Source: Geosiphon pyriformis (Eukaryota; Glomeromycota; Glomeromycetes; Archaeosporales; Geosiphonaceae). From it: 64,000 nt of DNA. The stretch spans positions 1 to 64,000 of the forward strand of contig JAAOMT010000384.1 in NCBI GenBank assembly GCA_016748015.1, in the 5' to 3' direction. The notes beneath the pieces are model-generated. The model ran no database searches. It was not told the origin of the DNA and worked only from the letters and a program-made list of their open reading frames with translations. The translations under genes were made by a program, and so were the position numbers. Positions 10,752-56,889 of the stretch are shown here, piece by piece. How positions within the stretch are numbered: position 1 is the first letter of the stretch; each line of letters begins with the position of its first letter.

Positions 10752-10810
10752 CAGTAGTTTTAATATTGGGAAAGAATCAATCAAGTAATAAAAATCATAA
10801 CTTATCAAGC

Positions 10811-10945: not shown

Positions 10946-11009
10946 TTAAAAAACTTACTTGTATTATTTATTGAATGAAACTATCATTCATCAACTGAAT
11001 CCCTTGGAA

Positions 11010-13899: not shown

Positions 13900-14303
13900 T
13901 ACAAGTAATAATAACTGGAATTTTTTTTTAAATACTATTAAAAATAATATTAAAAAACTAAAAAAAAAAAATTAATTTGATTTTTATTTAATTAGTTTAA
14001 TTTTTAAAATTAAGTAATTTAATAAGCTGATTTGCTTTTAAAATTAACAATAATTTGTTAGAAAACATTATATTTAATAATACAACCAATGATTAATCTT
14101 AATTTATCTTAAAAAACATATTATTATTATTGTTATTTATATTAAAAAGAAGATTAGTTGTTATTATAAAGATTTTATTTAAAATTTTATCTAAAATTAC
14201 AAAAAAATTTGATATAATAATAACAAACATAAGCAATTATTGCTGTTTTTTAAAGTTTTTAACTTTTTTAGCTATTTGTAAAATAGTAATAATACTAATA
14301 ATA

Positions 14304-14359
<56 letters not shown>

Positions 14360-19291: not shown

Positions 19292-21139
19292 ATGTCCAAG
19301 AAAAAAGTGCTTAAAAGAGCTTTCTATAGTCTTGTTAATGGTATTTTCTCTCAGAAAAAAAGAGTATCTGTGAATAATATTAAGTATTTTAGTAATAAAA
19401 GAAAAATCTTTTTGGTTAAATCTGGTCTTGATAATAATATATATTCAGATATAAATAGTGATTCAAGTAATAATAAAATTAGTAATGTTTTAATAGGGAC
19501 TGGTAGTGGTTTTTTTCTTGGCTTAACTGTAATGACTTTTAAAGTTAAAAAATTTAATATTAATTTAAATTGTGATTTCCTTATTAATATACTTAACTAT
19601 AAAATAGATAAAGATAAGAAATTCCTCTTTTTTTTTCTTAATATCTCTTTGGAAAAAAAGTGAATAGATTTCAAAATTATGAAAACTCAAGTGAAAGTAT
19701 TTGTTAAAAAATTTTTTGTTTTAGATATTAACTTTTTAACAGTTGAAAAAAAATCAGTAACAATAAAAATTCAAGTGGTTAAAAAATTTTTTTTAACAAT
19801 TAATGGTTTTGGAAAAGTTATTATCTCTTTAAATTTTAAAAAAATTATTAGATTAATATTTGTTTCAGAAGAAAATATAAATAAGGCTGTATTATTGACT
19901 AAAAAAAGAAATTAAAATAAACAATAATTTTAAAAAACAAAAAATACACTTAGATTGGGCTGTGATAATTAAAGAAATTTCCATAAATATGCCAAAAAAA
20001 ATGATTACTACTATAATATCCAAATATAGTCAAATTGTGTTTATTAAATTGTAACTTATTGTACTATAACAGAAGATTATAATAGAATTTACCAAATTAG
20101 CTTAAACAGATTAGTTGACAATAAAGTGGTCATTCTTAATCAAAAAAAATTCAGTACATATAGCCAAAGCCATAAAAGATCATAATTATTAAATGTTAAA
20201 AAATTGGGTTAGAGTACTTTTGTTTACTTTGCCAATAGGAACAACTGTTTATAATCTAGGTAATTTATTAAAAAAAGCTGGTAGAAAAACTTGTATTATC
20301 AATTAATCATTTAATACTAGCAATAAAATTTATTGTGTTGTGATTGGTTTTAAAACAAATAAGAAACTTGAATCTGCTTTTTACATAAAGTTAATTTTTG
20401 GTAATATAAAACTTTCTTAGATTAAGTTAAATTTGGTTTATTGTAAAAAGTGTGGGCATTTTAGATATTTGGCTTTAAGTAATATATCTAACATATTTGT
20501 TTTGCTTTTTATAAAAATTTATAAAAAAGTTGCTTCAAAAAAAGATTATTTTTAGTTGGCCAAGTTATATGTTAAAAAAAGTGGTTCTATTTTCTGTCCT
20601 ATTATATTTGGCAGCAAATCTTAGACTTAAATAGGTTTACTTGTTGTTTTTTTTAATAATACTTGCTCTGATTTTGGTTTTGGTTTTTTTTTGGTATATT
20701 ATATGTTAAAGAAAGTCTTTTGGTTATTTAAGACATTTCATTTATTAGTGTTTATTTGGCATTTTTGAAGTGTTTCTTAGAGCTTTTGGCAGATTAAGTA
20801 TTTAGTATTATGTAAAAATTAATCTTTATAAATTTGATACTTCTGACATTTGTTTTTTAATTTTTTTTTCCTATTATATCTGTATTATCAAATTTGAATT
20901 TGAATTTAGATATGGTTTTAAATATGGTTTTGGATAATCTATTTGCATTATTTGTTTTTTTTTCAATTGTGAATAAAAAGATCTTGGATTTGAATTTAAG
21001 TAAATCAAAAATTTTAACCACCAAAATAGGCAGCTTGAAATCAAAAATAATAGTTTTTAAAGTTTTAGTTAATTTAGTATTGGTAAGATTAGATTAGTTA
21101 TATGTTGATTTAGGTTCTTTTGTGATTGTTTTATCTTAA
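19292..21139 (+). pseudogene. LINE-D ORF1 fossil
   Basis: ATG 19292 opens MSKKKVLKRAFYSLVNGIFS, homologous to MSKKKALKDIFYGLIGGTFS of C. An in-frame TGA follows at 19661, then a one-base slip in an A-run near 19900. The RRM-like region covers about 19965-20120. A reduced zinc-knuckle relic (CKKCGHF) is near 20440. The C-terminal coiled coil relic TKIGSLKSKI is near 21020. Stop TAA is at 21137. The original ORF2 ATG at the junction appears as ATA. Confidence 0.7.
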
Positions 21140-24100
21140 TAATTAATTTGATATGAAAAATTGCTATGTATAATGTTCATAATATTAACGTTTCTATTAA
21201 ACAGAAAAACATAGTTTGTTAACATATAGAATTAAGTAATATGATTTTTATTATTATAAAAACAAAATTAAAGTTTTATATTAAGTTATAGATAGTAAGT
21301 AAGTTTGATAAGATAAGAATTTTTACATTTGGTTTGAACAAAATTTTTTTTGGTACAAGAGTAACAATTATTATAAATAATTATCTGGCTTGTTATGTTT
21401 TAGAGATAAAAAAAATTTCTGGTTAAATTATTTTAATACAGCTTTTGTTTAAAAGTAAATTATTAGTTACAATTTTGGGTTTATATACAAGTGTTTCTGC
21501 TGAAGCTAGGTTTGGTCAAGTGCTAAAGATCAATTTCTTCATTGTTAAGACTATTAATTCTAGTATTTTTGTGGTATTGGATGGAAATTTCAATGAAAAC
21601 AGTTCAAAAAAAAGTATAAATTTTAAGTTTTGTGTGGATTTAGACTTAATTAACTTATTTAATAGATATTTATTAGCCAAAGTTCATATTTAGAGTAATT
21701 TTAGGAGCATTAAAAAAATTATTAATTTTATTTTTGTGAACTAAAACCTGACATTTGTGGTCACTGGTTATGAAATTGACATTGTGTTTAAGTTTTTTGA
21801 TACTAATTACAAAACTGTTTTAGTTGCAGTCAGCTTGAATAATTTTTTAAATGTTTGTTTTAATAGTGATTGTAAACAGACTAATAAGAATAAATAGAAG
21901 TTCAAAATTAAGAATGCTAAGATTAATAAATAGTTATAATTCAAGGAGTGTTTGTTGAACAAATTCTTGAAAAAAATGGTTGGATTTAATAATGCAAAAT
22001 GTTGTGACAATTTAAACATTATGTGGAAGATTCTGAAGGAAATAGTGGTAAATTTTGCTAATAAAATGTTTTTTAGACTTTGGTTTAGTAAGTTTGAATG
22101 TTCAAAAAATAGGCAATTATCTAAGTTTTTTAAGTTAAAATTGTTGATAACCAAAATTATAAAGAGTTTGAACTTGAATCAAGATTCAAAAATTGATTGC
22201 TTTATTAATACTTGGATTAACATTAACGAAAAAATTGCAAATTATGATTAATAATAGTATAAATTTGAAGAATATTCTATATTACTTATTAAAAATCAAA
22301 AAAAAATACTATAAATTCAAGTATTATAAATTTAAGATTGTCCAAAATAATTTCATTAAAAAATTATTAATAAGTATATAAAAAATTTTTGTTTTAATAA
22401 AAAGAAAATGATTAGGAGTATTTTGGATTGGCTATTTCGAAAAGTAGTACTTAACTATTTAATAGTTAATAATAAATTGATTTTAGAGTCACATAAAGTC
22501 AAGTTTATAATTGACACAATTATAAAAGAATGGATAAAAAAACATATAGTGCCTAATACTCTATTTAATAAATAGTTTAATTAATATGTTCTTTTGAATT
22601 ATGTCAATAATAATGTTTTCTTAAAAATTATAAGCAATATTAAATTTAATAAGTTTTTACAAGTTGTTAAAGATTTACCTAATAGAAAAGCCACTGGTCT
22701 TTTTAGTATCTCTAATAAATTCTGAAAGCATAATAATATGCAAGTTTTGAATGACTTATTAAATATTTTTAATATGTGCTTAGCATTAAGCATGGTTTTT
22801 ATATAGTAGAAAAAAGCATGAATTTCTATAATACCAAAATTATATAATTGAAAAAAGACTCTTACAAATACCAGACTAATAGCTCTGATTAAAACAGCCC
22901 AAAAAATTTTATTTAAGATTTTTTACATAGAATTTTTTTAACTTGTAGTAATTTTGATGTTTTATGTAGTAATAATTTCTCAGTTTTAAAAAACATATCT
23001 ATTCAAACTCCAATTTTTGCTGTTGGTTTTATTATTGAAAACATATTGAAAAAAAACAAGAAGCTGTGATTAGTTTTTTAAGATATGTATAAAGCATATA
23101 ATTTAGTCAGATAATATTATTTAAAAAACAATTTAGCTAAGATTAAAATATATTTTTATTTTATTAAATTTTTTGAGAGTATATACAATAATTAAATCAA
23201 CTGAGTAATAACAGATTTTGGGCTTATAAAAGAGTATACTGTTTATGATGAACTGGATTAATGTAAAATATTTTTATCTCTGCTGTAAAAAAATTTTTAT
23301 AATTTTTTGTTCTGTAAGATTAAAAAGCATAACAGTTTATATGGCTATAGGTTGAATTCAAAATTTTTTATGTAAATTAACAAACAAGATCTTAGAAATA
23401 GTATAATATTTTTTGGCAGCAAATAACACAATTTGAGTTGGAAATAGTATGACTACTATTCAGCATATTTTGAATATAACTAATAAATTTTTACAAATTA
23501 ATAACATTTTAATTAATATAGATAAGATGGTTGCCATATTTATTAATTGAAGAGTGAAAATTTCTTATTTAGTAAAAACTAGATCAAATATTTTAGTAGC
23601 TAAAAAAAGTAAATTACACAGATACTTGGACATTTTTTTGTTTACAGACAGTTTTTTCAAGCCAAGTCTTACTAAAGCTTACTTGAATGTTAAGTTTTTC
23701 ATAAATCTGGTTTTGAGAAAAGTCATATTTAACAAGCAGTTTTTGTACTTAGTGTTGACTGTGCTACAACCAATAGTTAATTACAGATTACAATTTAGTT
23801 ATGTTTTAGCAAACATATGTGAAAAGTAAATCAGATTGTTAAAAAAAAGGCTTAAATTCAAGACCAATTTACTTAAAATTTTTTTTAATAAAGCTATTGC
23901 TTATTTTGAGTTATATAATCTAAAATTATTTAAACAATTGCAAACTGAAAATTTTTTGGCAAATTTAGTAGTTTTTGCCAATTCAAAAAACATTTTCAGC
24001 AGATTGTTTAAACACAGAACTATAAATCTACAAATTATTAGTTGAATACCTTGACAATTTCTTTACTTTCTAATTATGTTGTCAATTAATCTTATAAATT

Positions 24101-25790
24101 GTTTTCTAACTGATGTAATCAACACTTTTGTATTGTGTGAATTATCTTTAAGCAATAATCTGCTTAATGTCTTCTGAGTTGGTAGTAGTATTGCTATTGT
24201 GAATGTTTTGGACTTGGAATAATATTTAAGTATAGTAAGTTTGCTAAAGAGATTTGGTCTTGTTTTTACAAACCAGTTTCTAAATTGTTATAATATGTGT
24301 TTTATGTAAAATATATTTTACAAATGGAAAAAAATGAATCCCAAAAAACTGGTTTCTAGTTGGTTCAGTTTACTGGTCAAGTTTATTAAGAATAGTAGTC
24401 TAAATAATGATAGTGCTCTGGCTTTTTATTTCACTTCTGTTTAAAGCTTAAATGTATTTGGTTTTGTTTATAAATGTTTTTCAAAAAGTGGATCTAATAG
24501 TATAGTTATTTATATAGATGGTTTAATTAAAAATTTGGGATTTGTAAGTGTTTACAATAGTGCTGCTGCTTATTTTTCAAATATTGACATAAATATAAAA
24601 GCTAGAGTAAACAGTTTGTTTTCTTTAACTCTGACAAAACTGCAAGTCATTGTTTTTGCTTTGAAATGTATTCTGATATTTAGCTTAATTGTATTATTTA
24701 TAAATAGTTAGACATCATTAAATATGAATGTTAAAATATTAATCCCAATTTTTGCAATAAATACTGAATAGAAAAGAACCATATTTATTATATTATTATG
24801 TTTAAAAATCTGTTAATTAAGTAAAACAAAGTCAAAAGTTATTCTGGAGTTGTTGATAATAAATGTGCTAATTTTTTTGCCAATGTTGCTATCATGTTTG
24901 ATTTTATATTGTCTATTAGAATGCTATGTTACTTTCTTGCTATTAAAGACAGATTTGTTTTTAAAAATGTTTGCTATTTCATTAGGCATCTTTTTAAAGC
25001 TATCAGTTTTGTTAATTGAAATTCCAAATATGTTAATAATATTGTAAACAAGTCTTTATGTAGCCTAATCAATATGCATAGAATCTTTAATATGTAGTAT
25101 TTTAATAGTTAAGTTTACTCGAATTTTACCAGTTTAGTCTCTGCAATGCTTTAGTCTTACTTTATAAAAATTCTATACTACCAATTACTTATAGCCAAAA
25201 AAAAGAAATTATATGATTTGAGTTATCTTAGTATGTTGTGTATTTAATATAAATTAGTTAAAGACTCTGATTATATGTTTTTTTGTGTTTATGATAACTG
25301 TATTAGGTTGGATTTGATTTTGAAAACTATTAAAATGTAGATTAGTTTGCTAAGTACTTATACTATTAATAGTATAATAATTTGGTCTCTATGTAAAACC
25401 AAATCTTCTAATTATTTATATATGTTACTGATCAAAAACTTTGTGATAAAAAAGTGGATAATGAGCACAGTATACTTATTGGGTAATAGATTTGATAATG
25501 TATTGTTAATTACTAATTTGGTTTAGAGTTTTGTTAAAAGTTACAGATCTACTATATAATTATTAACTGCCAAACTAAAAGTATATTATAAAAAACATAA
25601 TTTTCTGCTATGTAATAAATTTATGATTCCAACAGTATTTAGTTTGACATCTATATGGTCTCTTAAAATAATTCATGATTTTGGTTTTAAATTAGATGTT
25701 TATATTTGTTTTAATTTATATTCTTATTTATTCAGTATATATTTTGGTTTTTTGTAAGACTTTTTTGTTGTAAGTAGTTTAAATATATAG
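21139..25790 (+). pseudogene. LINE-D ORF2 fossil
   Basis: Endonuclease relics: LDGNFNENSS (equivalent of GGDFNENG) at 21578-21607, and a KFFDTNYKTVL end near 21793-21825. RT relics: LIALIKTAQKILFKI near 22878-22920, and AANNTI-stop in place of the FVDDTIW motif near 23420, so both catalytic Asp are Asn. Parts of the connection domain are still colinear at 23554-24045 (KPSLTKAYLNVKFF, LYNLKLFKQLQTE). The RNase H start reads YIDGLIKNLG near 24515. The stop TAG is at 25788. Many stops lie at Trp and Gln positions. Confidence 0.7.
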
Positions 25791-25925
25791 TATTGTTTTA
25801 ATTGTTCTAAGTAACTGGTCATATATAGAAAGAGCATAAATTATATTTAATATAAAATTTTATATGGTTTTATAATTTTAGATAGTAATTGGACTGCATT
25901 TGTAAAACAATTAATAAAAAAATAA

Positions 25926-34590: not shown

Positions 34591-34989
34591 ATTAAAATTA
34601 TTATAAAATTTACAAACTTTTTTAAAAAACAATTACAAATTAACAGTAAAACCAAAATTAATATAATATTTTTTAGCAAAATTTTTACTATAAGTTAAAT
34701 TATTAAAGTTAACTATAAAAAATTATTTATATTAATTCTAACTAATTTATTATTAATAATAAAATCTTTTTTTATAAATAATTTTAAGCTTAAAATTTGA
34801 TAACTAAATATTAATTTGTATATAACAAAATTTTAAATTAAAATTTATTACATATAAATTAATTTTAATAATATTACTAAAAACTAAAAAAAACTAAAAA
34901 AATTAATTCTTAAATATAAAACTTTTAATTAAAATTATATAAATATAATTTATATATATAATATTATATATATTAGAAATCAATTCTTT

Positions 34990-37250
34990 GTCTCCTTAAT
35001 TTTATGACTACAATCAGAGCAAAGAGTAAAAAAGCTGCACCTGATATTTGTCCTAAGATATCTAATAAAATTTCAACCAGAGAAGCTCTCTCTGTTGTAG
35101 AAGCAACTAGGCAAAATGTTTTAGAAGTCTTTTTTTTACCCAGTAATCGTGATAAGCTGTCTTTGATAGCCACTGAAGCAATTTCCTCATCTTTGACTGG
35201 TTTCTCATCAGTTAAAGTTCTCTCAAAGAGACACATTTGGGTTAGTCCCAGTGTTGCCTCCACCCCAACCAAGAGCCCAAAAGTTTTTAATAATAGACTA
35301 GTAAATAAGCTGGTTTTCCCCTTTATAGATTCAACACTTGATGCTGTTAGTACCACTTTTTCAAAAAAAATGGTCAAAAAGACCAAAAGTTCAGAAAAGT
35401 GGGAGCAGTTGCTTGTCTCTGCTATTGTTACACCAAACTCCTTTGTAGTTCCCAATGAGATCTTAGATGAGATCTCTATAGCATTATCTGGCACGTCATC
35501 CAAGATGGACCAAGATCAACTACTGGCTGTGTTGTCAAATGTGGTGTCTTCCGGCAGATCATTGCTGGTTTTAGAAGCAAAACAATTTCCTCCTGTTGAG
35601 TTACCTGTTCTTAGGAACTGGACTGATCAAATAGAAACTGATTTATCTTCTTTTCTAGTTTCTGGTGCTCCTTTTGGTGGTGCTTGAGAAACTATTACTA
35701 GTTGTCAAAGGTTTGCTGGATGGGTGGCCTCCACTTTGGTGCCTGGTGCTACTTTTAAGATCAAATTGGCTCATGTTAAGGCTGTTTTTCAGTTTGTACA
35801 TGGTTTTTTAGGTGCTAAATCTGTTTCTAAAGACAATGTGAAGCTTTTCTGTATGGAGTTTGCTTTTCAACAGTCTTTGGAAGCTGTGTTTCTGGTTGAG
35901 CTTACAAGCTTTATTCGTTTGACCACTTTCAAAATTGCCAAGTCTTTGGTGGTTTCTGAATCTGGTTCCTTTCCTGTTACTGTTGCACTGTGTGATATAC
36001 CTTTGGGTATATTAACTGCTGATATTAAGATGGCTCTTGATGTATTTGGTGGAGTTACCTGTGTTGTGTTGAAGCCTGCTGGTGTTTGGCAGTATGTGGT
36101 TGTTTACTTTAAGGAATTGGATGCTGCTACTGCTGCTCTCAATCATTAGTCAATTCTAGTGGGCAAAGATAGTGTTAGGATCCTTCTAGTTATTAATCAG
36201 AATGAGGCCATTCTGTCTTGCAATAGGTTTAAGGCCAAGTTGGTCAATCTTTCTTCTGGCTGCACAGCTTTTGAAATTAGTGATATGATTTCTTGAGTTG
36301 GTAAGCGAACATGCTTCATCCCTTGGTCTCCTGATTCTAGTTGTCATTCCTGGTTTGCTTTGATTACATTTGACTCTCAAGATAATTTGGATTCTGCTGT
36401 AGTCAAGACTGGTACTCTAAAGAAATGCTGTATCTGATAGGAAACTCCTGGCTGCTGGCACTGCTTTAGGTGTCAAGAAATAGGCCATCTGACTGCAGAT
36501 TGCAAGGTTTTCCTGTCTCCCATTCCCAAGGTTCCCAAGATTTTCAAGTCTCATTTTGTGAGTTCTGCTTTATATGCCAAGACTGCTGCTTCTTTTGGTC
36601 TTTCTGAGTTTCCTTCTTTGGTGGCTCCTTCAGCTGCTTCTGCTGCTGATCCTGCTGTTGGTTCTAGATTAGACTCTTTGAAAAAGCAGATTTCGGATTT
36701 GGCTGCTTTGGTTAAGTCTGTTGGTTTTTTGGTTGCTTTGGTGTCTTGTTTTTTTTATGATAATGCTGTTAAGACTGTTCAGGTCAAGAAAAATATTATT
36801 TCCATGAAGAGTACTGCTAACAATTTTGCTAACCTCATGATTAGAGTTTCTAAGGACATTGCTTGTCTTAGATTTAAGGTTGACTTTGGTGATATGGATT
36901 ATAATGGTATGCTGGCTGCTAAGCCTTCTTTTTTAAGTAAGGACACTATTGAGCATGTTATTGCTTTGTGACAAATGTCTGGTGCTGAAACCAGGAGCAA
37001 TATTGAATCTACTAAATTGTTTCTTAGTGAGTTTATTTTTGATTCTAGGAATCTGAATGGTATTATTGAGAGAATTTGTGAGTTGGAGTTATTTTTACTT
37101 ACTTTTGATTCAGCATAGTGAGTCTTTGATTGGGCCGAGTGTCTGATCACATGTAGAAAATGCATGATTTATGCCTATAATGTAATCTCTTCTGTGGTAT
37201 CATAGTTTTAGATAATATTTGGGTCTCACTCATTAAAATATAATAATAAT
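34990..37250 (+). mobile_element. Half-LINE family A, copy A2 (full length)
   Basis: About 2.26 kb: a short leader, a 705-codon frame (35004-37118) and the shared LINE 3' UTR with CACATGTAGAAAATGCATGA near 37149 and an A/T tail. There is no endonuclease or RT. The start region equals that of A4 and of the displaced 5' end of A3, and the 3' end equals that of A1 and A3, so the family has fixed ends. Confidence 0.85.
35004..37118 (+). pseudogene. Family A ORF1-like protein (A2), 704 codons with six stops
   Basis: ATG 35004 to TAG 37116 in one frame without any indel. Stops are TGA 35685, TAG 36147, TGA 36294, TGA 36435, TAG 36438 and TGA 36969, all at inferred or observed Trp positions. The first 230 residues are Ser/Lys/Thr rich with no clear domain. 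Next comes KIKLAHVKAVFQFVHGFLGA (from about 251, conserved in A1), an RRM-like unit (about 328-384, CDIPLG...VYFKELDAA), a CCHC knuckle at residues 487-500 (CFRCQEIGHLTADC), and coiled coil from about 552. It is likely an RNA-binding, gag-like protein. It differs from LINE ORF1 in its C-terminal 150 residues (LRFKVDFGDMDYN...), which I do not recognise. Confidence 0.8.
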
Positions 37251-37379
37251 AAAAAAATATTATATAATAATTAAAAAATTAGATATTTATAATTTTAAGA
37301 TTGAATATTTTTTTTAAAATATTAATAAATAAGACTTATATATTATTTAATATTATATATCAAATTAAATAATCTAAAA

Positions 37380-38254: not shown

Positions 38255-38385
38255 ACTGTTTATTTTATTTTACAAGTACAGTCCAACCACTATCTAGTAT
38301 ACAGATACAAAACAAGTAAATCAAACTAAATATGACTCATATATTTTCTACATATGACTGGTCATTTGGACCATTCAAAGTAGCA

Positions 38386-41300
38386 CTATACACTGTTATC
38401 GGAGATTTTTGGTCTCTTTTCTGTAATGTTGTTGATACTTATTTGCTGTGAATTCACGTTTTTAGGAAGTAGTTGGACCTCCAGTAACTGAATTTATCTT
38501 TAAATTATCTCTTATAATTTGAATTTGCTGGGCTTATAAGTGGAATGGCCAATTCCGTGCCAGTTGCTTTATGTAGTTACGTTGTAGTAAACGTCAACTC
38601 TTTCCCAGGAATTGCTCGTTTGGAAGCTTACTAAAAATGTGTAGTTACTTTGCTGTGAAAGTCAACTCTTCTACAGGAATTTCATCTGTAGACTACCCTA
38701 ATTATTGTAATAAGAAAAGAAAAGAAAAATGAAAGAAATGTAAAAGAAATAGGATTTTATCAAGGGAAACGTTTTCTATCCAGGCCTGGAGTCACTAACA
38801 GTTTACTGAAATTGGTAGCTAATCAATTTCGAAATGTTAGTTGGTTTTTGGGGATTTTCCAAGGGCAATAATTAAAGAATTTGGTTTTTCAAGTTATTTG
38901 GTATTTATTTCTTTTTGTGTGTATAGAAATGGTTCTAAGTAATAAATCTAAAGTAAGATATATTTTCTCGAAGAGAGAAGCTCTTCTTTTATACAACTTG
39001 TTATAACACTATTCTATGAACTTGAACTTTGCTATTTTCTACAATTTCGCTGAACTAAAGATACATTTTGGCAAACTACAAGTTATTTCGGCAAACTATT
39101 AGATATTTCAGTGAACTATCAATTATTTCGGCAAATTTCTACAAATTTTGGCAAACTTTTGAATGTTATATAGTTTGGGGTATTGCATGATTGATCATTG
39201 CAATTAGGTTACATTTGTGTTGTGTACAATTTGGAATATTAATTAAATGATAATTTCGGACATTTTTGCTAATGTAATAAGTGATTATTTGAAACGATAA
39301 TATATGCTAATTAATGATAGAAATTATAAGATAATTTTATGCTAAATAATATCTCTAATTTTGTCTGGTAACAACACCTACCAAAACTTCTGCATTATTG
39401 TTTAAGCCAGAAAAAAACAAACATGGCTTGCATAAACCAAAATTGACAGCAAAAGACTTAACCAAATCAAGCAAATGAACCACTCCTTCCAACAGCAAAC
39501 AGGATTTGCCATGCAACAGATCAAACACCACACCCACATCACACACTAGACCAGATTTCTCCATTGAGACCCTAAACTTAGATTTTAGCATTTATAACTT
39601 ACTATAATGTTTATCAACTAGATAATAAACAAAGCTTATCACTACCTAATGAGTTTTTTTTATTTTTAAAATACAAAACTGCTTCCACCACCCAATCTTT
39701 AAGAACAAAACCTTTGCACAAGATTGTATAAACACTAATATTCAAAGAATCCAAAGACAGAGTACATAGCATCACTAATGAAGTTGGAAAGCATCCTCCA
39801 ACTAAAGATTTCCACAAACCAATGTGATCCAAGATAATGTCAGAATGCACAGAGGCATCTTTTACACAGGTAAAAGCATAATTAGGTAGCTCCATATCAC
39901 TACACATTAAGCACAAAACACCTAGATAATTTCTGTTATACAGTCTTTTGTAGACAGCCACTAATAATCTCTTAAGTATGGCCTTTATCAAATATGTTTG
40001 CAGTATGGCTAATTTCTTGTTAGTAAACTCAGCCAACATGTGAGAATTCAGATACCAAACTGAGGCAGTACAATTCCAATCAATGTGTTGAATGAAAAAG
40101 TTCTCTAAGACATTAACACTTAAAACCATCTCTTATAAGGCCCAGCAAACAATATGATAGACATTACAAACAAAATAGTGAATATTGTCTAAAATTACCT
40201 GACTGTTTACCATGAGAACCTTTTTGCAAACTTTGATAAGAAGAATGAAATGTAACCCAGCAGCTGTCCAGACAAAAGCATCAGCCTAATTATTACTCAC
40301 AACCCCTAAATGACTCTTAACTTTCACTCATCTTATAAAAATGTCTTTTGAATTAATTAAATTAGAAACATAATGTCTTTCTACTCAACACCTATTCTGA
40401 AAATTAGGCTGGCATAGATTACACTTCAACAAACATGCATTCAAAACTGCCTGGCTGTCTGTATGCAAAACTACAGAACAAGATGAGAAAACACATTTCA
40501 GAGCCAAAGCAATAACCTGCAATTCAAACAATGTCAAAGATAACAAGCCATTCACCCAAACATCCACACTAATGCCAACATCAGAAAGGTATACTGCTGT
40601 ACTACAAGAAACCTGTGAGGTCTTTAAACTTTTTAAGAAATCATTAGTGTAAACATTAATTGCCTCTTCCCATATTTTATGCAACTACTTATGTATCTCT
40701 ACAAATTTAGCAGAGGACAGAAAATTCAAACTGCCCAAATAAGCACTATTATTGAAAGACTCCACCAAAAAATTATTCATAAACTTAAATGCTTTGTCAA
40801 ACTAAAAAGGTACAAAACTCCTTAGACATAATCTCTTTCAATATTAGAAAGTTTTTCAGTCCATAACCAAACCACTTTTGTTCAGTAAAATGTCTCCAAA
40901 AGCAACACCAAACTACTTTAAAGAACAGACTATGTTAAAATAAAAAACATGTCCTAATATTTTGAACATCAGATAGCAGCCAGGTAAATGGAATGCATTA
41001 AGCAAATTATTAGCCAGAGACATCCTGGTGTCTAAAAAAATCCTTACAATACCAGCCAGAAAGTTATTCCTTAGATTGACTTTCAACTTGGCAGGAAATT
41101 GCAGAGAGTTCAGATGTGCCCACTCCAAAATCTGTAAATCTAAAACACAGTACTCAAAAAACTGGTCAAGAATACCAGAAGTATTAGAAAATACAACAAC
41201 TGAAGCCACTTTGAACTTAGCCTGAATCTGTTCAAAAGATTTCAAACCATACAAAAATGGGTGGTACAAAGCCTCATTAGGGAAGTTTCTTGACAGATTG

Positions 41301-46095: not shown

Positions 46096-49000
46096 CATCT
46101 CAAGAATAGTTTGGTTAGGATCAAAATGTGTAGCAAGTTTATCCAATTTTTTGGAGATATTCATAATGGTCATTGTTACCAGACAAAATTAGAGATATTA
46201 TTTAGCATGAAATTATCTTTATAATTCCTATTATTAATTAGCATATATTATTATTTCAAATTATCACTTATTACATTAGCAAAATGTCCGAAATTATTAT
46301 TTAATTAATAACCCAATTTGTACATAACACAAATGTAACCTAATTGCAATGATCAATTATGCAATACCCCGAAATATATAACATTCAAAAATTTGCCAAA
46401 ATTTGTAAAAATTCACTAAAATAATTAATAATTCACTGAAATATCTAATAGTTTGCAGAAATAACTTGTAGTTTGCCAAAATGTATCTTTAGTTTAGCAA
46501 AATTGTAGAAAAAAGCAAAGTTCAAGTTCATGGAATAGTGTTACAACAAGTTGTATAAAAGAAGAGCTTCTCTCTTTGAGAAAATATATCTTACTTTAGA
46601 TTTATTACTTAGAACCATTTCTATACACAAAAAGAAATAAATATCAAATAATTTGAAAAACCAAATTCTTTAATTATTGCACTTAGAAAATCCCCAAAAC
46701 CCAACTAATATTTTGAAATTGATTAGCTACCAATTTCAGTAAAACTGTTAGTGCCTCCAGACCTGGATAGAAAACGTTTCCCTTGACAGAATTCTATTTC
46801 TTTTACATTTTTTTGATTTTTTTTCTTTTATTTTTTTCTTATTATAATCATTAGAGTAGCCTACAAATGGGATTTTTGTAGAAGAGTTGATTTTCACAGC
46901 AAAGTAACTACACAATTTTAGTGAGCTTTCAGATGAGCAATTCCTGGGAAAGAGTTAACGTTTACTACAATGTAACTACACAAAGCAACTGGCACAGAAT
47001 TGGCCATTCCACTTATAAGCCCAGCAATTCAAATTATAGAAGATAATTTGAAGATAAAATTCAGTTATTGGAGGTTTAAACACTTTCCATAGTCATGAAT
47101 TAACAGCACTACAACAAACATACAAGAACTAAGAAGAGACCAAAAACCTTTGATAACATCATACCAACTGGGTTATGACCAATTTTGGGTTAATAAGTGG
47201 TTATCATGTGCATGATGGCTTGGACCAAGAGAAGGTTTTCTCACCTTTCTTTTGGCAGATATTTTATGATCCTCTTCTGTGTGAGATTAAGAGACAGGAA
47301 AGTGTATGTGGGTATAGGTTGAATTCTCATTTTGTTTCTAGAACTGGTCATGTGGAATCTCAAGCTGGATTAACTTCATTTCTTGCTGCTGGCACTTTTG
47401 TGGATGATATGATCTGAGTTGGTAGTAGTTAGGTGGCGACACAACATATTTTAGATGTTGTTAACAAATTTTTCAGAATTAATGACATTTCAATTAACAA
47501 TGATAAGACCATGACCATTCCTATCAACTGCTGAGTTGTGAATCTCTCTTTTTTGATAAGTGGAATGCCTATATCTGTGGCCAAAAAAGGGGAATTTCAT
47601 CAGTGTTTGGGTATCTTTTTGTCCACTAAGTGCCTTTTTAAACCCAGTCTTGCTAAAGCTCACTTGGACATCAAGTTTTTTGCTAATTTTGTGTTAAAAA
47701 AAGCCATCTCTAATAAACAATTTTTGTATTTGGTGTCTTCAGTCCTCCACCCTATTGTGAATTACAGAACTCAATTCAGCTTTGTTCTTCCTAGTATGTG
47801 TAACAAATAGAATACTATAATTCACAAGGGTTTGAAATTGAGATCTGGTCTGCCTTTGAATTTTTTCAATGATGCATTGCATTACCCCTTATTGTATGGC
47901 TTGAAAACTTTTGAACAAATCCAGGCTGAACACAAAGTGGTGTCTGTTGTTTGTTTTGCAAATTCGGTTGGTATTTTGGGTCATTTGTTTGCTCACAGAT
48001 CTCATGACTTGTAAGTTTTGTGTTGGTGTCTGATCCATCCACTGAGTTCCCTTACTCGTATTGGTGTTGGTACTTCTGATAATTTTTTGGCAGGTTTGGT
48101 TCATATATTTTATGATTATAATCTTTCTCTGAGTGGCATTGGAGCCAATGCTTTTTGTCTTCAGAAAGAGACTCCTATAGTATCTGTTCTTGGTAAGTCT
48201 AGATTTGTTAGATGTCTTCCGTCTCTTCTACTTGGGCAATCTTTAAATGTTGAAAGCAGTTGGACCCATGTGGGCTGGTTCCTGTCTGGTTTGATCTTTC
48301 AGTTTCTTTTATCAACATGGTGGCTCCCATTTCCATCACGTCTTCTGCTGTTAGTAAGGTTGCCTCTCGAAATGTCCTGGATTTGATTGATTTTGTTACG
48401 ATTTGCGATTGTCTGCTTGGTGTTGATACTAATAGTATTTCAGTTTATACTAATAGTTCTTTGGCTGGTTTGGGTACTGTTGGCATGTGGGCTGGTGCTG
48501 TCATTTTTTTTGATGGTGTTGATTTGGGTTTGGGTGTTGAAGTCTCTGGTTTGGTGTCTTCTACTATGATGGAGTTGCAGGCTATTGCTCTGGCTCTTGA
48601 GTGTGTTCCCCCCTCTAGTTCTGTTTATTTGTTCTCTGACAGTTAGGCGGCTTTAGATGCATGCAAATCTGAGCTGGGTCTGGTGGTTCCGAACTTTCGA
48701 AATCGATGCTAGTTAGAATACCATCACATTTACAACTTGATTCATAATAAAAATCTGAATATCTGTTGGTTTAAAGTCAAAGGACATTCTGGTGTTGTGG
48801 GTAATGAGTGTGCAGATGCTCTTGCTATGGCTGCTGCTATGTCTAAATATTCTCTTCCTTTGCGTGTGAATGTGTGCTATATTTTGGCAGGTGGTGTGGC
48901 TATTTCTGGGAATTCTAGACATTTTGTTCATGATATTTTCTGTTGTGTTTATTGAGCTCAATGGGAGATTGGTTCAGGTTCTAGGGTCTTGGTTACCAGT

Positions 49001-49726
49001 TTGCATGGTAATGTAGACTGGCGTAGGTCTTCTCTCATGTGGCATCCTAATATGCATATGGCCGCTGGTTCCACTGGTAAATGTTCTGCTGATGCTTATA
49101 CTTACTTCATAAAGGCTTTACATCATTGACTGCCTGTTACTGTCCACAAGTGCCTTTATAGTAGATCTTATCCCAGCATTTTATGCTTGTATTGTGGTGA
49201 AATCAAAGTTTCCGATCATGTTTTCTTTTGTGGTTCTGATACTGCTATCTGTGCCCAGCTGTTGGACATGCACGTGGCTATCTGGGGAGCATTCTCAGAT
49301 TTACTCTGGTCATCATCACAATTTATGCAGCTTATGCTCTTTTGTGTTTCTGATATTTTGTTGTGTTTGGCATTTTGTAAGGGCTTTATGTTTAAACTTT
49401 GTTTTCAGGAAGTGGTTTCGGTTTTCAGGAACTCAAAGATTGCTTGTCAAAGGGTGGTGGAATTTGTGTGAAATTTTTGTCTTGCTTTTAGGGATAAGGT
49501 TTGGCTGGTTCATGTGAGTCACTGTGCTTTAATAGAAAAGTGTGGCCTGATCCCTAGAAATGGCTCTGTTCCTGGCCTAGTGCATGGTCTTTCTTCATTA
49601 TTTTCTGCAGAGATGATAAAGATGTTGGGTATTGCAGAGGCTTTTGGCATTAGCTTTGGCTTTCGTGTATCTTGTTTATTTTTTTCGGGTATTGGGAATT
49701 TTGTATTGGTTATTATAGATGCTTAG
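46096..49726 (+). pseudogene. LINE-E ORF2 fragment (RT end to C-terminus)
   Basis: RT motif FVDD is intact near 47395-47408. The RNase H start TDGS reads TNSS (first catalytic Asp lost), but MELQA keeps the Glu, FSDS keeps the Asp, and VKGHSGVVGNECADALA (deleted in B) keeps the last Asp. Zinc finger CLYCGEIKVSDHVFFC at about 49185-49235. Final stop TAG 49724. It has several stops at Trp/Gln sites and a few frameshifts. It serves as a reference for the domains missing in B. Confidence 0.8.
46174..47158 (+). mobile_element. Solo LTR (985 bp) in LINE-E
   Basis: Starts TGTTACCAGACAAAATTAGA, ends CTTTGATAACA, flanked by TCAT at 46170-46173 and 47159-47162. TATA box TATAAAA at 46554-46560, followed by GAAGAGCTTCTCTC; AATAAA at 46636-46641. 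Colinear with 38394-39373 on the opposite strand. It has lost many CG sites that the other copy keeps. Confidence 0.92.
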
Positions 49727-49959
49727 TGTAGTTTTGATCAGCCTGAGTGGCTGGTCACATGTAGAAAATGCATGATTCATGCCTAGTTTAGATCTCTTAT
49801 GATGTATTGTACTAGGTAATGTTTGGACCTCACTCATTAAACAATAAAAAAAAAAAAAATAGCTTTTGATTTTAGATTATATATTATTTAATTTTTATTT
49901 ATTTTATTTAATAAATAATATTTAAATACAATTTTATATAATATATTAAACTAAGTAAT

Positions 49960-50030: not shown

Positions 50031-50243
50031 TCTTAACACAAATAATATTACTAATATCTATAAAAAATAAGCACAATTTACATGTTTTAAAATAAATAAT
50101 ATTAAATATATTTTTTTTTATTAAGATTTAATGAGTGCAGTCCAATCACTACCTAAGTACATAAAATCAAACAAAATTCTAAATTAAATGTGGCTCATGC
50201 TCTTTCTACACATGACTAATTACTCAGGCCAGTTAAAACAGCA

Positions 50244-53200
50244 CTATGTACTTAACAGATCTGATAAAGAAATACTACACAAAAAACCAAAGTTCAAACC
50301 AAATAAATAAGGATATAAACCAAAGCACATATAAATATCCAATCTGACATTGAAGCTGTGGATGACTCCAACAGCCCAAAAGTTCAACAAACCAGCAACC
50401 AATAGTATAGCAGATCTATCACATGGCAAAAGATTGTGCTTCTTATAAAAAGCTTTCAATTTGGCAGCAGACAACCAAATATTAAACCTATGAGTTTCGA
50501 CAAGACCACAAACCAACTTAATGATCAAACTGCCACCAGATACAAAGCCAAAGTGAAAGATAACATTAGCCACTCAGCTTTTCAAGACAAATCTCTTGGC
50601 CAATAATATGTACAAATTACCAGATAATTTAGCTTTATGCAGAGATTAAACAACTATATTTCTCAAAGCAGGCCCACCAGCCAGCTTATACCACTTTATA
50701 CCAATGTTTAATAGTAAATTCTTGCTAGCATTGTTATTATGTATACATAAAAACAAGTGGTCAAAATCCTCAATTATCTCACACTTAATGCATACTATGT
50801 TAGAATATTTAGAATCATATAATCTCTTTCTTATAACAACTGGCAGACAATAGAGCAAAGTCTTTATTAAGTAGAACCACAGAAAAGTTGAAGATAAACT
50901 GGTAAAACCAGAATAGATCTTATTATTAGAATGCTAAACACCAAAGAATTTGGCTGTATTAACATTACCAACAATACTTACATCCATAAAGCTGGCAACA
51001 CACTTGGATTTTCAACTGACAAAATTGACAGCATCAAATAAACTCTTAACAAAATAATGTGCATTCTCAAAGACAGGCCTGTCTTCAACACTAAAAAAGC
51101 AACAAGACATGCTTAGGGACAGTATAGACTTAGAAGAAACTGCTATATTGGCAAAAAAATCCACTTGCTCATTCCCAATAACACTTGAATGTCTCTTAAA
51201 CTTTCTCCACATGACTGACAGATTCTTTTTTGAAATAGTGTGACAAATATGCTTTTTCACACTTATGGTGAAAATCAGGACCAGACATACTTACATCAAA
51301 TTTGCACATATCCAATAATATCTGACTGTCTATAAACAAGATAACAGCATTAGAAACAGGTATACACTCCAATGCCAAAACAATAACTTGTAGCTCCACC
51401 AAAGTAGAGAAAAGTAAGCCAAGAACTTTCACACTAATGCTTATGTCAACCTTTGGAAAATAAGCAGTAGTACCACTACAGGCACCAATAAACCCCAAAC
51501 TTCTAACAGAACTATCAGTGTAAACATTAATGGAGCCTTGCCCAAAGGCAAGTAAATGCTCAGAAACAAAACCAATGTCACATAAAAAATTGGTGGGAGT
51601 AAAATAAAACATCACAGCCACACTATTACCCAAATTACCATTCTTAACAAAATTAGTAATAGAGACAAACCAGGCAAGAATTGGACTCATAGGGTCAAGT
51701 CTTTTCCATCTGTAAAAAGTATTCTAAGTAAAACACAAGCCACAACAATCCAGAAGTTGGTTAGCAAAAATGAGACCAAATTTTTTGAGAGAATTCCTTA
51801 CATCTAAATAACCACTTAAACTTAGAACATCCAAAATTAACACTCCAATTCCAGCTCAAAAAACATTAAAAAAAGCACCACCCAAAGACATGCTACACAA
51901 AGTGAAAGCATAAATAATATTAGCCAAAAAACAATTTATAGAATTAATAGATAACTTGACCAGAAAACAAAGAGGATGCCAGGGCATTCAGCTGGAAGTC
52001 TGCAAATCTATTACTTTATGTTCAAAAAACCTGCCAAAAATCCCATTAGCATTACTAAAATTAACCAGATTGGCTATTAAACTCTCAGTAAGCATTTGCT
52101 CAAAAGACTTCAGACCATATAACTTAGAATAATGCAGTGCTTCATTAAGAAAGTTTTTAGGCAAATTTGTCTTGAACTTAAGCTCTTTTCTCAACAATTT
52201 GTTCTATTTTTCACAAATATTCTTAGAGGCAAAGCTAAACTGAAGTCTGTAATCAATGATAAGCTGCAAAACAGCAGAAACTAAATACAAAAATTGCTTT
52301 TCAGTAATGGTTTTTTTTAAAACCACATTCGAAAAAAATTTGACATTGACATAAGCCTTGGCCAAACTTGGCTTAAATAAAAAAATTCCCAAATACTAAT
52401 AAGACTTGTTCTTTTTCACCATTAAGATTTTTGACCCACTAATAGACAATACAGTCTTTTAAACACCCTGGTTAATAGGGATAGCAACAATCTTCTCAGT
52501 ATTTATTGAAATGTTATTAATAGAAAAAAATTTACTGGCTATGTTTAAGATGTTTTGCATCACTGTTAAGCAGTTTTCCAATCCAGATTGTGTCATTTAC
52601 AAAGGCATCTGTGGCAAAAAATAAAGTTTTGTTATTACTTGAATCAGGTTTGTCAAACTTAGTGTAGAACTTTGAACACATTCTGTAGCCATACAATTGT
52701 TTATGTTTTTTGATCTCACAGAACAGCAGATCATAGAAAATTTGCTATAGTAACAGTGAGAATACTTTTTCTTAATCCAAATCATTGTGTACAACATAAC
52801 TATCAGATAGACCAAAATCTGTTATTATCTGATTGAATTTGTTATTGTGTATACTACCAAAAAAGTCTATAAAATAAGGACACATTTTGATTTTTACTAA
52901 ACTATTGAGCAAATAAAACCATTTGACAGAATCATAAGCCTTATGCATATTCTGAAAAACTAGTCACAACTCCCTGTTTTTCTCCAAAGCATCTTTAATA
53001 ACTGAATCAACAGTAAAAATTGGGAATTATGTAGAAGTGCTTTTTAATACTAAAAAATTGTCATCATACAAATATCAAACCTACTGCAAATCAGAGAGAT
53101 TTTGTCTAAGAAGATTTTAGACAAAATCTTTTGTGCAGTCTCAATCAATGCTATCAGCCTAGTATTGGTGAGAGTATCTTCCTAATTATATGGTTTAGGA

Positions 53201-54885
53201 ATCATGAAAATCCAAGACTTTCTCCATTGCTTAGGAACTTTTCCAGAAATTAAACACTTGTTAAAAATGCTCAAAAAACCATTAAAAACTAGAAGATTAC
53301 TATGTTTCTAGAGTTTATTAAGAATGCCAAAAAGCCTAGCAGTCTTCCCATTAGACAAGTTCTTAACAATCTGTAGAAATTCATCTATATTAACATTGCA
53401 CATAACTTCTAAGAATATATTATCATCAATGTAACTTAAGAGAGCATATTAATCAGACCAATGACTTGACAGAGCACTGGAAACCAAGCACTTTCTCATT
53501 CAACTCTCCATTATTGTATCAATTAAAAACTTAACAGTCTAAGGCTTCAAAATGAGCTCATCATCAACAATTAAATAATTAAAAACCACTTTTCTAAAGA
53601 GCCAGTTCAGAACACTCTTTATTATCTTCTCTTTATTCAAACAAAAATTTTTCATGCATTTTTTCACAGCCTTCCTTATAGAATCATCTCTGGCTACCTT
53701 AGATTCATAATATTTGAACTTGTAGTAACTCTTCTTAACAACTGAGATGTGGTACAAAATATTCTTAATATTAATATATTCATTAATCATTAAACAAACT
53801 TTGGATGTCTTTTTTTCACCTATGCTTGTCTAAGTACCAACAAAATGGTTAGTCTCCAAACTTAAACCTGAGTTTACACTATTGACAATCTTGGATATCA
53901 ACAACTCTAACCTATAAAATTTTGAAAATAGCTTGTTCTTTGCACAATTGAACTTACTGAACCAAAGTTTGGAAAAGATTTCATTGGCAGAATCAATCAT
54001 TATCTCTTTGAGAATCTCCTACATAATATCCAAATTACCATTGTGTCCTACAGCATGAAACTCAACTAATCTCTTTAAAAATTTGTCTGAAGTCATAAAA
54101 TGCTTTTACTCATTAACATCCACATTTTTCAATTTGAACTTCCATCAATTCTTATTAGCATGTTTGTGTATGCTATTCAATCAAATATCTAAAAGACCAC
54201 CTAAGTCCATTAAAACCAAAACAGCTTTGTAATCAGTATTAAAAAACTCAGACACAGAATTAACCTTATAACCAGCCACAGCTAAGATCAGATTCTCACT
54301 AACAAAAATGTAATCAAGAACTTTTTCAACACCCCTTGAGTTGCTCTATGTAGAAACACTAACCAAAAAATGTCCATCAAAAGAATTAACCAAACCCAAA
54401 TCTAAACAGAATCCAAAACTTGCATTCTTCTTAGACCTGTCCTTATTGAAATCACTGCTCAAAACAACAAAACTACTGGAATTGACTACTTGAGCTATAA
54501 AAAAATTAACACCAAAAGCCTGGCTGAATTTGTCACCAGAAGAAATATTAGTGTATAAACCAATAATTGAAACTGAAATTTTGCTTTTGAAAAAAAGATG
54601 CATTGAAACAATGTGACTAGGAATCTTCTCCACCTTGAAGACATGTTTAGCCAGAGAATTGTTTATGATTATTGCCACCCCAGTCCCAAGAGAACCATTA
54701 TTTAGGCCAGATGTGAAAATGTGTACTCTGTTAAATTTGTTTATAATCTATGGTCTGATGTTAAATCTTAATTTTGTTTTTGTAATAATAGATATTATAT
54801 TCTCTGATTCTTTGTGCTATTGAACAATGTCTTCCTGTTTTGCAGATATATTGATACTACAAACATTGCATGTAGCAAATTTTTA
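50244..54885 (-). pseudogene. LINE-F ORF2, decayed
   Basis: Opens at ATG ATA AGT CTG in the junction TAATGATAAG near 54885, with a TGA/TAA soon after. Endonuclease relics include LSSDFNKDRSKKN (54440-54480). The RT motif reads FVNDTIW near 52590, so the first Asp is Asn. RNase H reads VYTDSSVRSLG near 51500 and RHSSVIGNEQVDFF near 51180. The C-terminal finger CIKCEIIEDFDHLFLC is at about 50740-50790. Stop near 50244. Confidence 0.78.
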
Positions 54886-54889
54886 TATC

Positions 54890-56770
54890 AGACTTATCAT
54901 TAGGAGGTATAAGAAGTAGGTGCCAAACTAGCATTGTCTATTTTGGCTAACAGGCTTATAACTGTAACTGATAAACTGTTTATTGTGTTTTTCAATTTTG
55001 ACATAACAGAAGAATTAAAACCTACTGCTTCCACAATAGTTCTACCACTAGTGATCACATCCAAACTCTTACTTATCACTATATTTACTCTTTAATTCTG
55101 TAATAAAAGGGTTACCAACAGCTAATGTCCAAAACTAGGCTGAGAAACCATTGGTCCAGGTGTGTTCAATCTCTTAGCCAATTTGTTAACACATTTTATG
55201 AGGCTGGCAAGACTATGCTCAAAAGTGATAAACCTACTATCCAATTCCAAGACAACAGCAGAATAGGTATTATCTCTGAAAAAAAACCAGAGTCAATTAA
55301 GCCATTTTGTACAAGAAAAAGAGAGAAGGAGGACTTACCAATAATCTTGGCCCAAGAAATACCACCAAAAGAAACCAGATGAGCAATTAGAGCTGAACAT
55401 TTAGCATATATAGATGTCAGTCTGCTTTTATCCATTTTTAACACCCTATAGAGTGAGTTACCAGAAGAAATTTTTCTATCTACAAAGCAATTCCATAAAA
55501 TATGACCCAATTTACCACACTTTGCACACTTAGTAGAGTCTAAATAAGATCAATACAGATTGACTTCTTTTAAAACAGATGTGGTTCCCATAATAGCATT
55601 TAATAATACAGCCAAGTCAAAACAAACAACAGTGCACCTGGCCTGAGCATATGTAACTGAGTAACAATTAATAACACATGTTTTTCCATCTGCAGAATCA
55701 ATAAAATTTCAGATGTCATGAGCATTAGTATCTATTGACAGTATGTAGAACAGTGCCTTATGTTAATTCCTTAAATTTCATGTTTTTTTGTCTAAATTAG
55801 TCTTAGCTACTTATATAATGTCTTTTTTAATCAAGATAGATCATCCAGAGGTGACCAAATTAGCATAATCAACTTGTTCAAATTTCACCACAGCCTTCTG
55901 CCAAAAACCAAACAACTGCATTTTGATTGATATTATTACATCAAATTTGGATAGTGCTGCACACACAGCCTTAGTTAACGTCCCAATAGGAATTTTTTTT
56001 AACACCACAGTCTAATCTGAATGCATAAAAAATTTTTTTAGATCAGTGTTTACCAAAACATTAATAGCTCTTGCCTTTTTCATAGCCTGTGCCAAACTAA
56101 ATTCAGAAATAAAAGAGGCATAGATAATCTTAGCAAATTTTGAGGGGGTAGAGACCTTTCCAAAACCATTAACTTTTGAAAACAACTTTCTAATAGCCAC
56201 AAACTTGTCATAAGATAATTTTTCAGCAACTTTGTTCAGACCAATATCCAAAGCAAAATTTTTTTTAACAGACACATTGACCAGATTCTTTAGTGGCAAA
56301 GAGAAAAATACAGGAGCATTCAAGAAAATATCATTATCATCAACATTACTCAAGAAATTGATTTTCTCTAATGGCATATTTAAAGCCTTTTTTGCAACCA
56401 ATTTTGGGCCCTTTGACATCTGAGTAGAATCATCTTTATTGAACACATTTCTTTCTTCATAATTCATGCTGGTTTTCTCTATTAAACACATTTTTTTCAT
56501 ATTAACACTATTAAATTTGGTGGTATTACCAGCTTCAAACTTCCAAGAATTACTAAATACCTTCTTAAACAGTACAGTCTCACTAGCAGCACTATTTTTT
56601 AGAACACTTCCCTTTCTCTTTTTTCTAGAGGCAATATCTTTACCAGCAGTATCAGCACCAAAGTTTTTGACAGACTTCTTAATCACAACAATACTACAGC
56701 CAATGGTGGTCTCGTAACCAAGCAAAAAAGGTTTGGATTTATCATACTGAATTATAAAAACTTCTTTCAA
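54890..56770 (-). pseudogene. LINE-F ORF1, decayed
   Basis: Readable from 56770 for 252 residues without stop, but the original ATG is not visible. Basic, Ser/Lys-rich N-terminus (VLKNSAASETVLFKKVFSNS), then KVNGFGKVSTPSKFAKIIYA, the conserved pre-RRM motif. RRM-like stretch 56010-55850 after a TAG (55999-ish). Zinc knuckle CAKCGKLGHILWNC (55520-55480). Coiled coil toward 54920. Unlike B, C, D and H it has no slip in the pre-RRM A-run. Confidence 0.75.
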
Positions 56771-56889
56771 AAAAACTTTTAACTCTTTTTTGAGAATTTT
56801 GGATGAAAGAAAGAAAGAAGCTTTTTATTAGATATTATAATATAAATATAATTTATATTTAAATACTTAAGATTATTAAAAATATTTTT

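Follow-up and report, generated by a model that had tools for sequence, protein, structure and literature searches.

How can an element that encodes a Gag protein, and neither an endonuclease nor a reverse transcriptase, form and maintain a family in a genome? This question is raised by four related copies, A1 to A4, which lie in the same stretch of Geosiphon pyriformis DNA as several LINEs. The stretch, 64,000 nucleotides long, is referred to below as the window and corresponds to contig C292 of the genome searches. The genome of this fungus is reported to measure 129 Mb, with 64% of repeats and a G+C content of 29% (PMC9453076), and the assembly that was searched comprises 124.7 Mb in 406 contigs. 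The observations described here make it very probable that family A, as the group of copies is called, is a long-lived, non-autonomous, gag-only branch of LINEs, which would be moved in trans by the LINEs resident in the genome. The positions of the elements and of their parts are given in Table 1.

Table 1. Gag-only elements, LINEs and their parts in the window
Feature	Position	Strand	Basis
A1, gag-only, type T2; begins at A2 position 415; tail 3773-3897	2046..3906	+	
LINE family B; ORF1, ORF2 with endonuclease and RT; tail 11854-11979	4328..11990	+	
A4, gag-only, 5' part only, strongly decayed; far end approximate	13900..14690	-	
LINE family G; tail 25787-25911	21134..25922	+	
A2, gag-only element copy, type T1, full length, decayed	34983..37257	+	genome matches, fetched-copy alignment
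5'-terminal pyrimidine-rich motif of A2; commonest family form ACTCTTTGTCTCC	34983..34996	+	
Gag-like frame of A2 (708 codons in the intact relative L008)	35004..37118	+	
RRM-like domain of A2, approximate	36240..36405	+	from L008 residues 415-468, PF00076 E 3e-6
CCHC zinc knuckle of A2	36462..36503	+	L008 residues 486-501, PF00098 E 5e-5
Folded 3' RNA tail of A2, common to LINEs	37115..37241	+	
Simple-repeat (TAA/A-rich) 3' end of A2	37238..37257	+	
Family F 3' tail, taken as LINE	38264..38389	-	groups with ORF2-following tail in L012
LINE family D, 5'-incomplete; tail 49723-49845	47170..49853	+	
LINE family E; tail 50123-50247	50111..54905	-	
A3, gag-only, C-terminus of T3/T4 kind; begins at A2 position 168; tail 56898-57024	56885..58981	-	

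The element of family A is about 2.27 kb long and has sharp ends, a 3' tail rich in TAA or A, short target duplications and a single frame of about 708 amino acids. As read from the fetched copies and A2, it most commonly starts with ACTCTTTGTCTCCTTAATTTTATG. The commonest end is TTTGGGTCTCGCTCGTTAAA, in which transitions occur, followed by TAA or A repeats that vary in length. The preliminary description had placed A2 at 34990-37250; the element itself is confirmed, but its real start lies at about 34983 and its repeat tail extends to about 37257. As the query made from A2 ended at 37250, the 3' boundary rests on the alignment of the fetched copies. The frame of A2 is interrupted by six stops (four TGA and two TAG), and A2 itself is therefore dead. 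Intact frames of about 700 residues, which the preliminary description had proposed to look for, nevertheless exist: 3 of the 63 scored family A places are free of stops, and the Gag-like frame of L008 is intact over 708 amino acids.

A Pfam search with the L008 Gag finds an RRM_1 domain (residues 415-468) and a zf-CCHC knuckle (residues 486-501), both above cut-off, and finds no endonuclease, reverse transcriptase or RNase H in this frame up to E 1. Together with the reading of the individual loci, these results bear out the earlier view that family A has one gag-like frame, with RRM and CCHC, and lacks both EN and RT. The AlphaFold model of Gag is poor, with a mean pLDDT of 36.9; with caution, it may be read as an RRM-like fold at about residues 324-393 combined with long C-terminal helices.

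The four copies in the window are alike to different degrees. A2, A4 and A3 had been thought to share a start, which is true of A4, matching from A2 position 8, but not of A3, matching only from position 168. Since the match of A1 begins at position 415, A1 and A3 are both truncated or interrupted at the 5' end. The end said to be common to A1, A2 and A3 is real to the extent that all three carry the tail, but the tail and C-terminal types of A1 and A3 differ from those of A2. Beside the broken 5' edge of A3 there is a direct repeat of about 0.83 kb with 83% identity (59009-59842 and 61028-61844). Two other ORFs of the window resemble, by eye, a bestrophin-type channel protein (15807-16499, minus strand) and a tyrosine phosphatase (32158-33261, plus strand).

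In a DNA search of the genome with A2, the best 40 of 1629 candidates were scored. All of these, A2 included, are near full length and run from query base 1 or 6 to base 2248-2261. The other best-scored places are 85-89% identical to A2, and one 169-bp fragment stands beside them. Sixteen copies were fetched with flanks of 800 bp and aligned to A2 in blocks of 50 columns. Conservation of the blocks is 0.84-0.97 within the element versus 0.11-0.54 outside of it. It falls from 0.89 to 0.32 within one block at the 3' edge and climbs through one mixed block at the 5' edge (0.36, 0.73, 0.90), and beyond these sharp ends the flanks of the 16 copies and A2 are unrelated.

When the genome was scanned with a degenerate pattern for the 5' end, 307 exact matches were obtained; a second pattern, made for the A2-type (T1) 3' end, gave 73, and the reversed controls gave none in either case. 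On the contigs up to C293, for which both lists are complete, 16 of 19 T1 3' ends are paired with a 5' end at a distance of 2.0-2.5 kb, and most of the well-preserved T1 copies on these contigs are thus full length. In the reverse direction, 16 of 100 listed 5' ends pair with an A2-type 3' motif, and 77 are unpaired with such a motif and lie outside the known places. The constant ends in the best 40 of 1629 candidates and the 307 matches to the 5' end establish that A1 to A4 belong to a real family rather than to a set of random truncations, and that this family has a high copy number and is sharply bounded on both sides.

The insertion of these copies has left marks in the flanking DNA. Repeats between the two flanks of the same copy exceed those between flanks of different copies (mean 9.07 versus 7.68, a difference reached in 0 of 1000 permutations), as measured in 29 of 31 copies, L008 and L029, whose ends could not be placed correctly, having been left out. 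Repeats of at least 10 bp are present in 13 of the 29 copies, versus 24% of 812 cross pairs. The best target duplications are 10-14 bp long, often with a few extra bases between the repeat and the element. As the flanks are nearly pure A/T, single target duplications are weak, and it is the excess over the 29 copies that answers the earlier suggestion to look for such duplications.

After insertion, the copies decay almost freely. Private changes were counted in ten T1b and eight T1a copies at codons with a clear group majority, and codons with several changes were set aside (35 among the private changes and 8-19 per contrast). The 470 private single changes comprise 303 replacements, 144 silent changes and 23 stops, which gives an N:S ratio of 2.10, somewhat less than the 2.51 that the mutation spectrum would predict. 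Between subfamilies, N:S is 37:55 for T1b/T2 (Fisher p=1.4e-6) and 13:19 for T1a/T1b (Fisher p=0.003); the contrasts with T3 are weaker, with p values of 0.03, 0.03 and 0.13. As the private changes are near neutral and the differences between subfamilies are not, the source copies of the subfamilies have kept the Gag frame under purifying selection. C to T and G to A changes account for 373 (79%) of the 470 private changes, which come from A2, L001-L016 and L029. This decay towards A and T fits the very AT-rich intergenic stretches.

It is the 3' end that connects family A with the LINEs. A tail fold of about 125 nt is found on gag-only elements and on LINE families B, D, E, F and G, and the tail is thus not limited to the copies of family A. 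Eight LINE tails (B, D, E, G) and eight gag-only tails were aligned, and the fold derived from this mixed alignment has 28 pairs, 17 of them with changes on both sides. In shuffle controls that leave the relatedness of the rows in, and with each fold derived from its own alignment, the mixed fold pairs 92.1% of cells versus 83.9% when shuffled (sd 1.0), and has 54 doubly changed cells versus 21.9; neither value is reached in any of 500 shuffles. When the partners are slid in the 16-tail alignment, pairing falls to 30-38%. The 17 doubly changed pairs are reached by 6 of 500 shuffles, and the pair types, reached by 49 of 500, are not clearly above the shuffled ones.

Applied to 14 gag-only tails, the mixed fold pairs 84.6% of cells versus 79.4% shuffled (reached by 0 of 500; pair types by 214 of 500), and a freely predicted fold pairs 92.9% versus 87.0% (0 of 500; pair types 322 of 500). 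On the mixed alignment the freely predicted fold gives 87.0% versus 81.8% shuffled (0 of 500), its doubly changed pairs being reached by 84 of 500 shuffles. The two rival folds have the central helix in common and differ around it; as both of them covary, only the core helix is settled. It is concluded, on these comparative grounds, that the tail contains a conserved RNA fold whose outer part is unsettled.

The compensatory changes bear on the manner in which the RNA is recognised. It can be imagined that the LINE enzyme accepts any A-rich end in a relaxed, poly(A)-type fashion, that the folded tail is mere baggage and that Gag serves otherwise. The tails do finish in repeats, A-rich or of TAA, whose length varies, as such recognition would have it. 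Compensatory changes, however, keep the fold across LINEs and gag-only types alike, and an inherited piece of baggage would show none, which makes relaxed recognition a very unlikely explanation.

A covariance model made with the 16 aligned tails has 13 matches in the window, nine of them above 50 bits. The tails matched are those of A1, A2 and A3, those at 11854, 25787, 49723 and 50123(-), and those at 28297 and 38264(-); the last two are taken as LINE ends because the tails with which they group come after an ORF2 in L006 and L012. Altogether, the model gives 69 matches in 44 sources and recognises 30 of the 31 gag-only loci, the exception being L036. No Rfam 15 family matches the window, L017 or L030 at gathering scores. 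Weak and very AT-rich matches to the model flank A2 at 34449-34579(-) and 37317-37443(-), with 27 and 29.7 bits; they are alike by eye and are perhaps very old tails. Neighbouring elements frequently have tails only a few hundred bases apart, and many of these are arranged tail to tail, as at 640-765(+) and 809-934(-) of L008, at 49723(+) and 50123(-) of the window, and in L033, L006, L012, L002 and L011. A count by eye of the tail-model matches gives no clear excess of any orientation.

The resident LINEs possess the enzymes that family A lacks. LINE B, as read in L017-L022, has Exo_endo_phos and RNase_H domains above the Pfam cut-offs and an RVT_1 domain below its cut-off (26.5 versus 29.6 bits, E 6e-6); it also has a repeat end, and a CCHC knuckle that is visible only by alignment with Gag. 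I-like LINEs combine an ORF1 with CCHC, an ORF2 with APE endonuclease, RT and RNase H, and an end of the TAA type, and LINE B is a candidate for this group. The 5' ends of LINEs and of family A are similar as well. LINE B begins with ACTCTTTCTTTC in two of five copies and with near variants in the other three, and LINE D begins with ACTTCTTTCTTTC in one of three copies, which is much like the gag-only start (both judged by eye). In the window, a tract of C plus pyrimidines at the 5' end is seen at 4328 (LINE B), at 34983 (A2) and at about 56820 on the minus strand. Such a start resembles the 5'TOP motif, and it might tie the translation of LINEs and gag-only elements to growth control.

The relationship between the tails was examined in trees of 58 of the 69 tails (those shorter than 110 letters or with GC below 0.18 being dropped), of 54 tails (four long or decayed ones being further dropped) and of 75 of 84 tails (unlabelled ones and those with GC below 0.185 being dropped). 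The gag-only tails fall at several points among the LINE tails. A single origin of them nevertheless stands in the AU test, with p 0.32 for 54 tails and p 0.36 for 75 tails. The closest gag-only and LINE groups are T5 and LINE D, at 72.2%. T6 tails are placed with LINE B in the 75-tail tree, and are 66.7% identical to T3 and 63.1% to B. A separate LINE donor for each tail type was considered and is not upheld by the AU values, nor by T6, which is nearer to T3; for these reasons polyphyly of the gag-only tails is not claimed. The 3' UTR of family A had been described as the same as that of the full LINEs. The fold is indeed common to both, but the mean identities between gag-only and LINE tails are only 50-72%. 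The search for a donor subfamily therefore ended with no closely matching LINE tail, and no helper LINE is named.

If the gag-only structure were due to losses from complete LINEs, the gag frame would be expected to run on into an ORF2 in other copies. Thirty-one sites were read behind 5' ends that are without the A2-type 3' motif. Ten of them were picked from the 77 unpaired ends for their well-preserved motifs, 20 were drawn at random from the 64 that remained after 13 already read or found had been set aside, and one is L066. All ten chosen sites open with a family A Gag, and nine reach the tail, L036 being broken. Among the random sites, 12 have the tail at the expected distance, two have it after an insert of about 1 kb, and six have no tail within the 750 bp read; ORF2 is seen in none of the 20. 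L066 contains two parts of Gag that flank an insert, then the tail, and then a separate ORF2 fragment. In total, 24 of the 31 sites reach the tail without an ORF2 and seven did not reach it; a junction of gag to ORF2 occurs in 0 of the 31. As judged from the sites read, the copies thus do not normally continue into ORF2. Fragments of ORF2 are present in 12 of the 31 gag-only loci, always outside the element. In L037 the gag-only copy sits within the ORF2 of a LINE, the matches to which end at residue 512 and restart at residue 511.

Three sites had at first a different appearance. L036 was considered as a gag-ORF2 chimera and rejected: the sequence that follows the Gag is a repeat of about 1 kb which recurs in the window, in L021 and in L023, and the locus is therefore a nested insertion. 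Its own 3' end was not found, and there is no tail in a further 4.6 kb of sequence (L038). L053 and L059 were considered as elements with a longer gag and rejected, as longer reads (L065 and L064) reveal an insert of about 1 kb followed by the tail. The 1-kb repeat is present in the window at 38394-39374 and 46173-47158, with 89% identity between both copies, as well as in the tail of L021, in L023 and in L036. It interrupts LINE and gag-only copies and looks like a DNA transposon, to which class it is putatively assigned.

These readings bear on whether the copies have no life of their own and are the products of internal deletion or 3' truncation of living LINEs. The Gag is homologous to the LINE ORF1 in the RRM-CCHC region, and both the 5' motif and the 3' tail are LINE-like, as would be expected of such products. 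However, the Gag is only 26-36% identical to the LINE ORF1s, over residues 153-514 only (some of the LINE copies being decayed), versus 33-44% over long stretches among the ORF1s themselves, so that the gag-only branch is either ancient or fast-evolving. For the C-terminal domain of Gag past the CCHC, the LINE loci give no match below E 0.01. Furthermore, 5' ends of the family number in the hundreds, the loci that were read agree in structure, the subfamilies have a selected frame, and run-on into ORF2 is absent in the sites read. An origin of the copies as deletion products is thus very improbable.

Within family A, the two portions of the element have different relatives. A search with L030, of type T3, finds 18 further long matches at 89-91% identity and 21 T1 places that match the first part only, at 87-89%; the T1 matches end at base 1761-1768 in 20 of the 21 and at 1646 in one. 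In windows of 150 bp, the identity between T1 and T3 is 81-90% up to position 1350, 72% at 1500 and 40-57% from 1650 on, where T1 and T2 are 68-84% and T3 and T4 68-78% identical. A tree computed for the 5' 1640 bp groups T1 with five of the seven T3 copies at a support of 100/100, and L032 and the decayed L034, both T3, fall outside this group. For the same 1640 bp, a clade of T1 and T2 is rejected (log-likelihood 81.75 lower, AU p 0.001), and a clade of T1 and all T3 stands (AU p 0.38). The C-terminus of T3 has 29-34% protein identity to that of A2 (T1) and A1 (T2). L033 has a T2 C-terminus, yet its tail is only 60-62% like the T2 tails, and on the whole there are five or six tail types on two C-terminal types. 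The drop in identity and the rejected T1+T2 clade demonstrate that the family is a mosaic, in which the 5' two-thirds and the 3' third (the C-terminus of Gag and the tail) have different histories.

A tentative proposal can be attached to this mosaic structure. Gag-only parasites may persist by reassorting their 3' modules, thereby switching between helper LINE families that are stringent for their tails. The conserved 5' body of Gag would repeatedly gain new 3' modules, in L033 possibly the tail alone. The proposal is a possible one that should be held with some doubt. Another very improbable explanation is that a domesticated host gag gene (compare L1TD1 of mammals) had its mRNA retrocopied by LINEs into processed pseudogenes. 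Intact frames and purifying selection in the sources would be expected equally from such a gene, but against it stand the constant 5' ends of the copies, the LINE tail fold and TAA/A repeats in which they finish, and the coexistence of several source lineages that differ in C-terminus and tail.

By combining these results, a life cycle can be outlined for family A as a gag-only LINE branch moved in trans. The RNA would start at a LINE-like pyrimidine-rich 5' end and would carry one Gag (RRM region, CCHC knuckle and coiled-coil C-terminus), the folded tail of about 125 nt, and TAA/A repeats. Gag would then coat its own RNA and form a particle with it. ORF2p of a co-resident LINE would recognise the folded tail and, by target-primed reverse transcription, would copy the gag-only RNA into a target that has been nicked. 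This last step is suggested by the shared tail, the repeat tail, the target duplications, the extra bases at the 5' junction and the 5'-incomplete copies. The exchange of the 3' third between lineages would most likely proceed by template switching or by recombination, in either case between RNAs or copies that are related. Family A would in this manner be mobilised by the ORF2p of LINEs while using its own Gag. As the Gag is under purifying selection, it presumably has a function for its own RNA, since without such a function the tail would be enough, as it is in SINEs.

Family A is an abundant gag-only LINE parasite, with some intact frames, in an early-diverging symbiotic fungus. It offers a system in which two questions can be tested, namely whether a Gag supplied in cis is sufficient to let a parasite RNA recruit a foreign ORF2p, and whether the fold of the LINE tail decides which RNAs are copied. 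The exchange of modules suggests, in addition, a route by which such parasites may change their helper. Gag-only derivatives of LINEs are described from mammals and flies in the sources consulted (PMC5753468, PMC4161310, PMC4467039). A literature search by titles and abstract openings gave no gag-only LINE family of Glomeromycotina, which is not a claim of absence from print, and the main text of a paper on transposable elements of Rhizophagus irregularis (PMC11075540) has no mention of ORF1, gag or non-autonomous.

The parallel that had been drawn is to HAL1, a non-autonomous derivative of LINEs which codes for ORF1p only and is likely served by the L1 machinery; it derives from mammalian L1 and is reported to have arisen several times (PMC5753468, PMC4161310). 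Family A is like HAL1 in that it codes for Gag/ORF1 only, without endonuclease or RT, and forms a family with constant ends. It differs in three respects. Its Gag has RRM and CCHC, and APE, RT and RNase H are present in the partner LINE B; family A and the LINEs have a common, covarying folded 3' tail; and the Gag lineage of family A is divergent and has had its 3' modules reassorted. Mammalian L1 is not known to have RNase H or a CCHC knuckle. As the Gag carries RRM_1 and zf-CCHC, and LINE B carries RNase_H, the descent from L1 that marks HAL1 is not seen here, and family A is not filed as HAL1. The parallel thus holds for the ORF1-only structure and probably for the way of working, but not for the descent.

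HeT-A is a gag-encoding non-LTR element that uses the Pol of another element, and conservation of its gag is reported to suggest negative selection (PMC4467039). Family A resembles it in that Gag is the only protein seen to be encoded and Pol would come from another element. HeT-A, however, serves telomeres; the copies of family A that were located lie on many contigs, in AT-rich or LINE flanks and sometimes within or beside LINEs, and the family is not filed under HeT-A either. SINEs, finally, are reported to share a 3' tail with their partner LINE, often with a stem-loop and simple-repeat ends, stringent LINEs need their own 3' end, and the I element ends in TAA repeats (PMC3747384). Like these SINEs, family A has a 3' tail in common with resident LINEs. 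Whereas these SINEs are short, do not code for protein and use a promoter derived from a small RNA, the element of family A extends over 2.27 kb and carries a selected Gag of about 708 amino acids.
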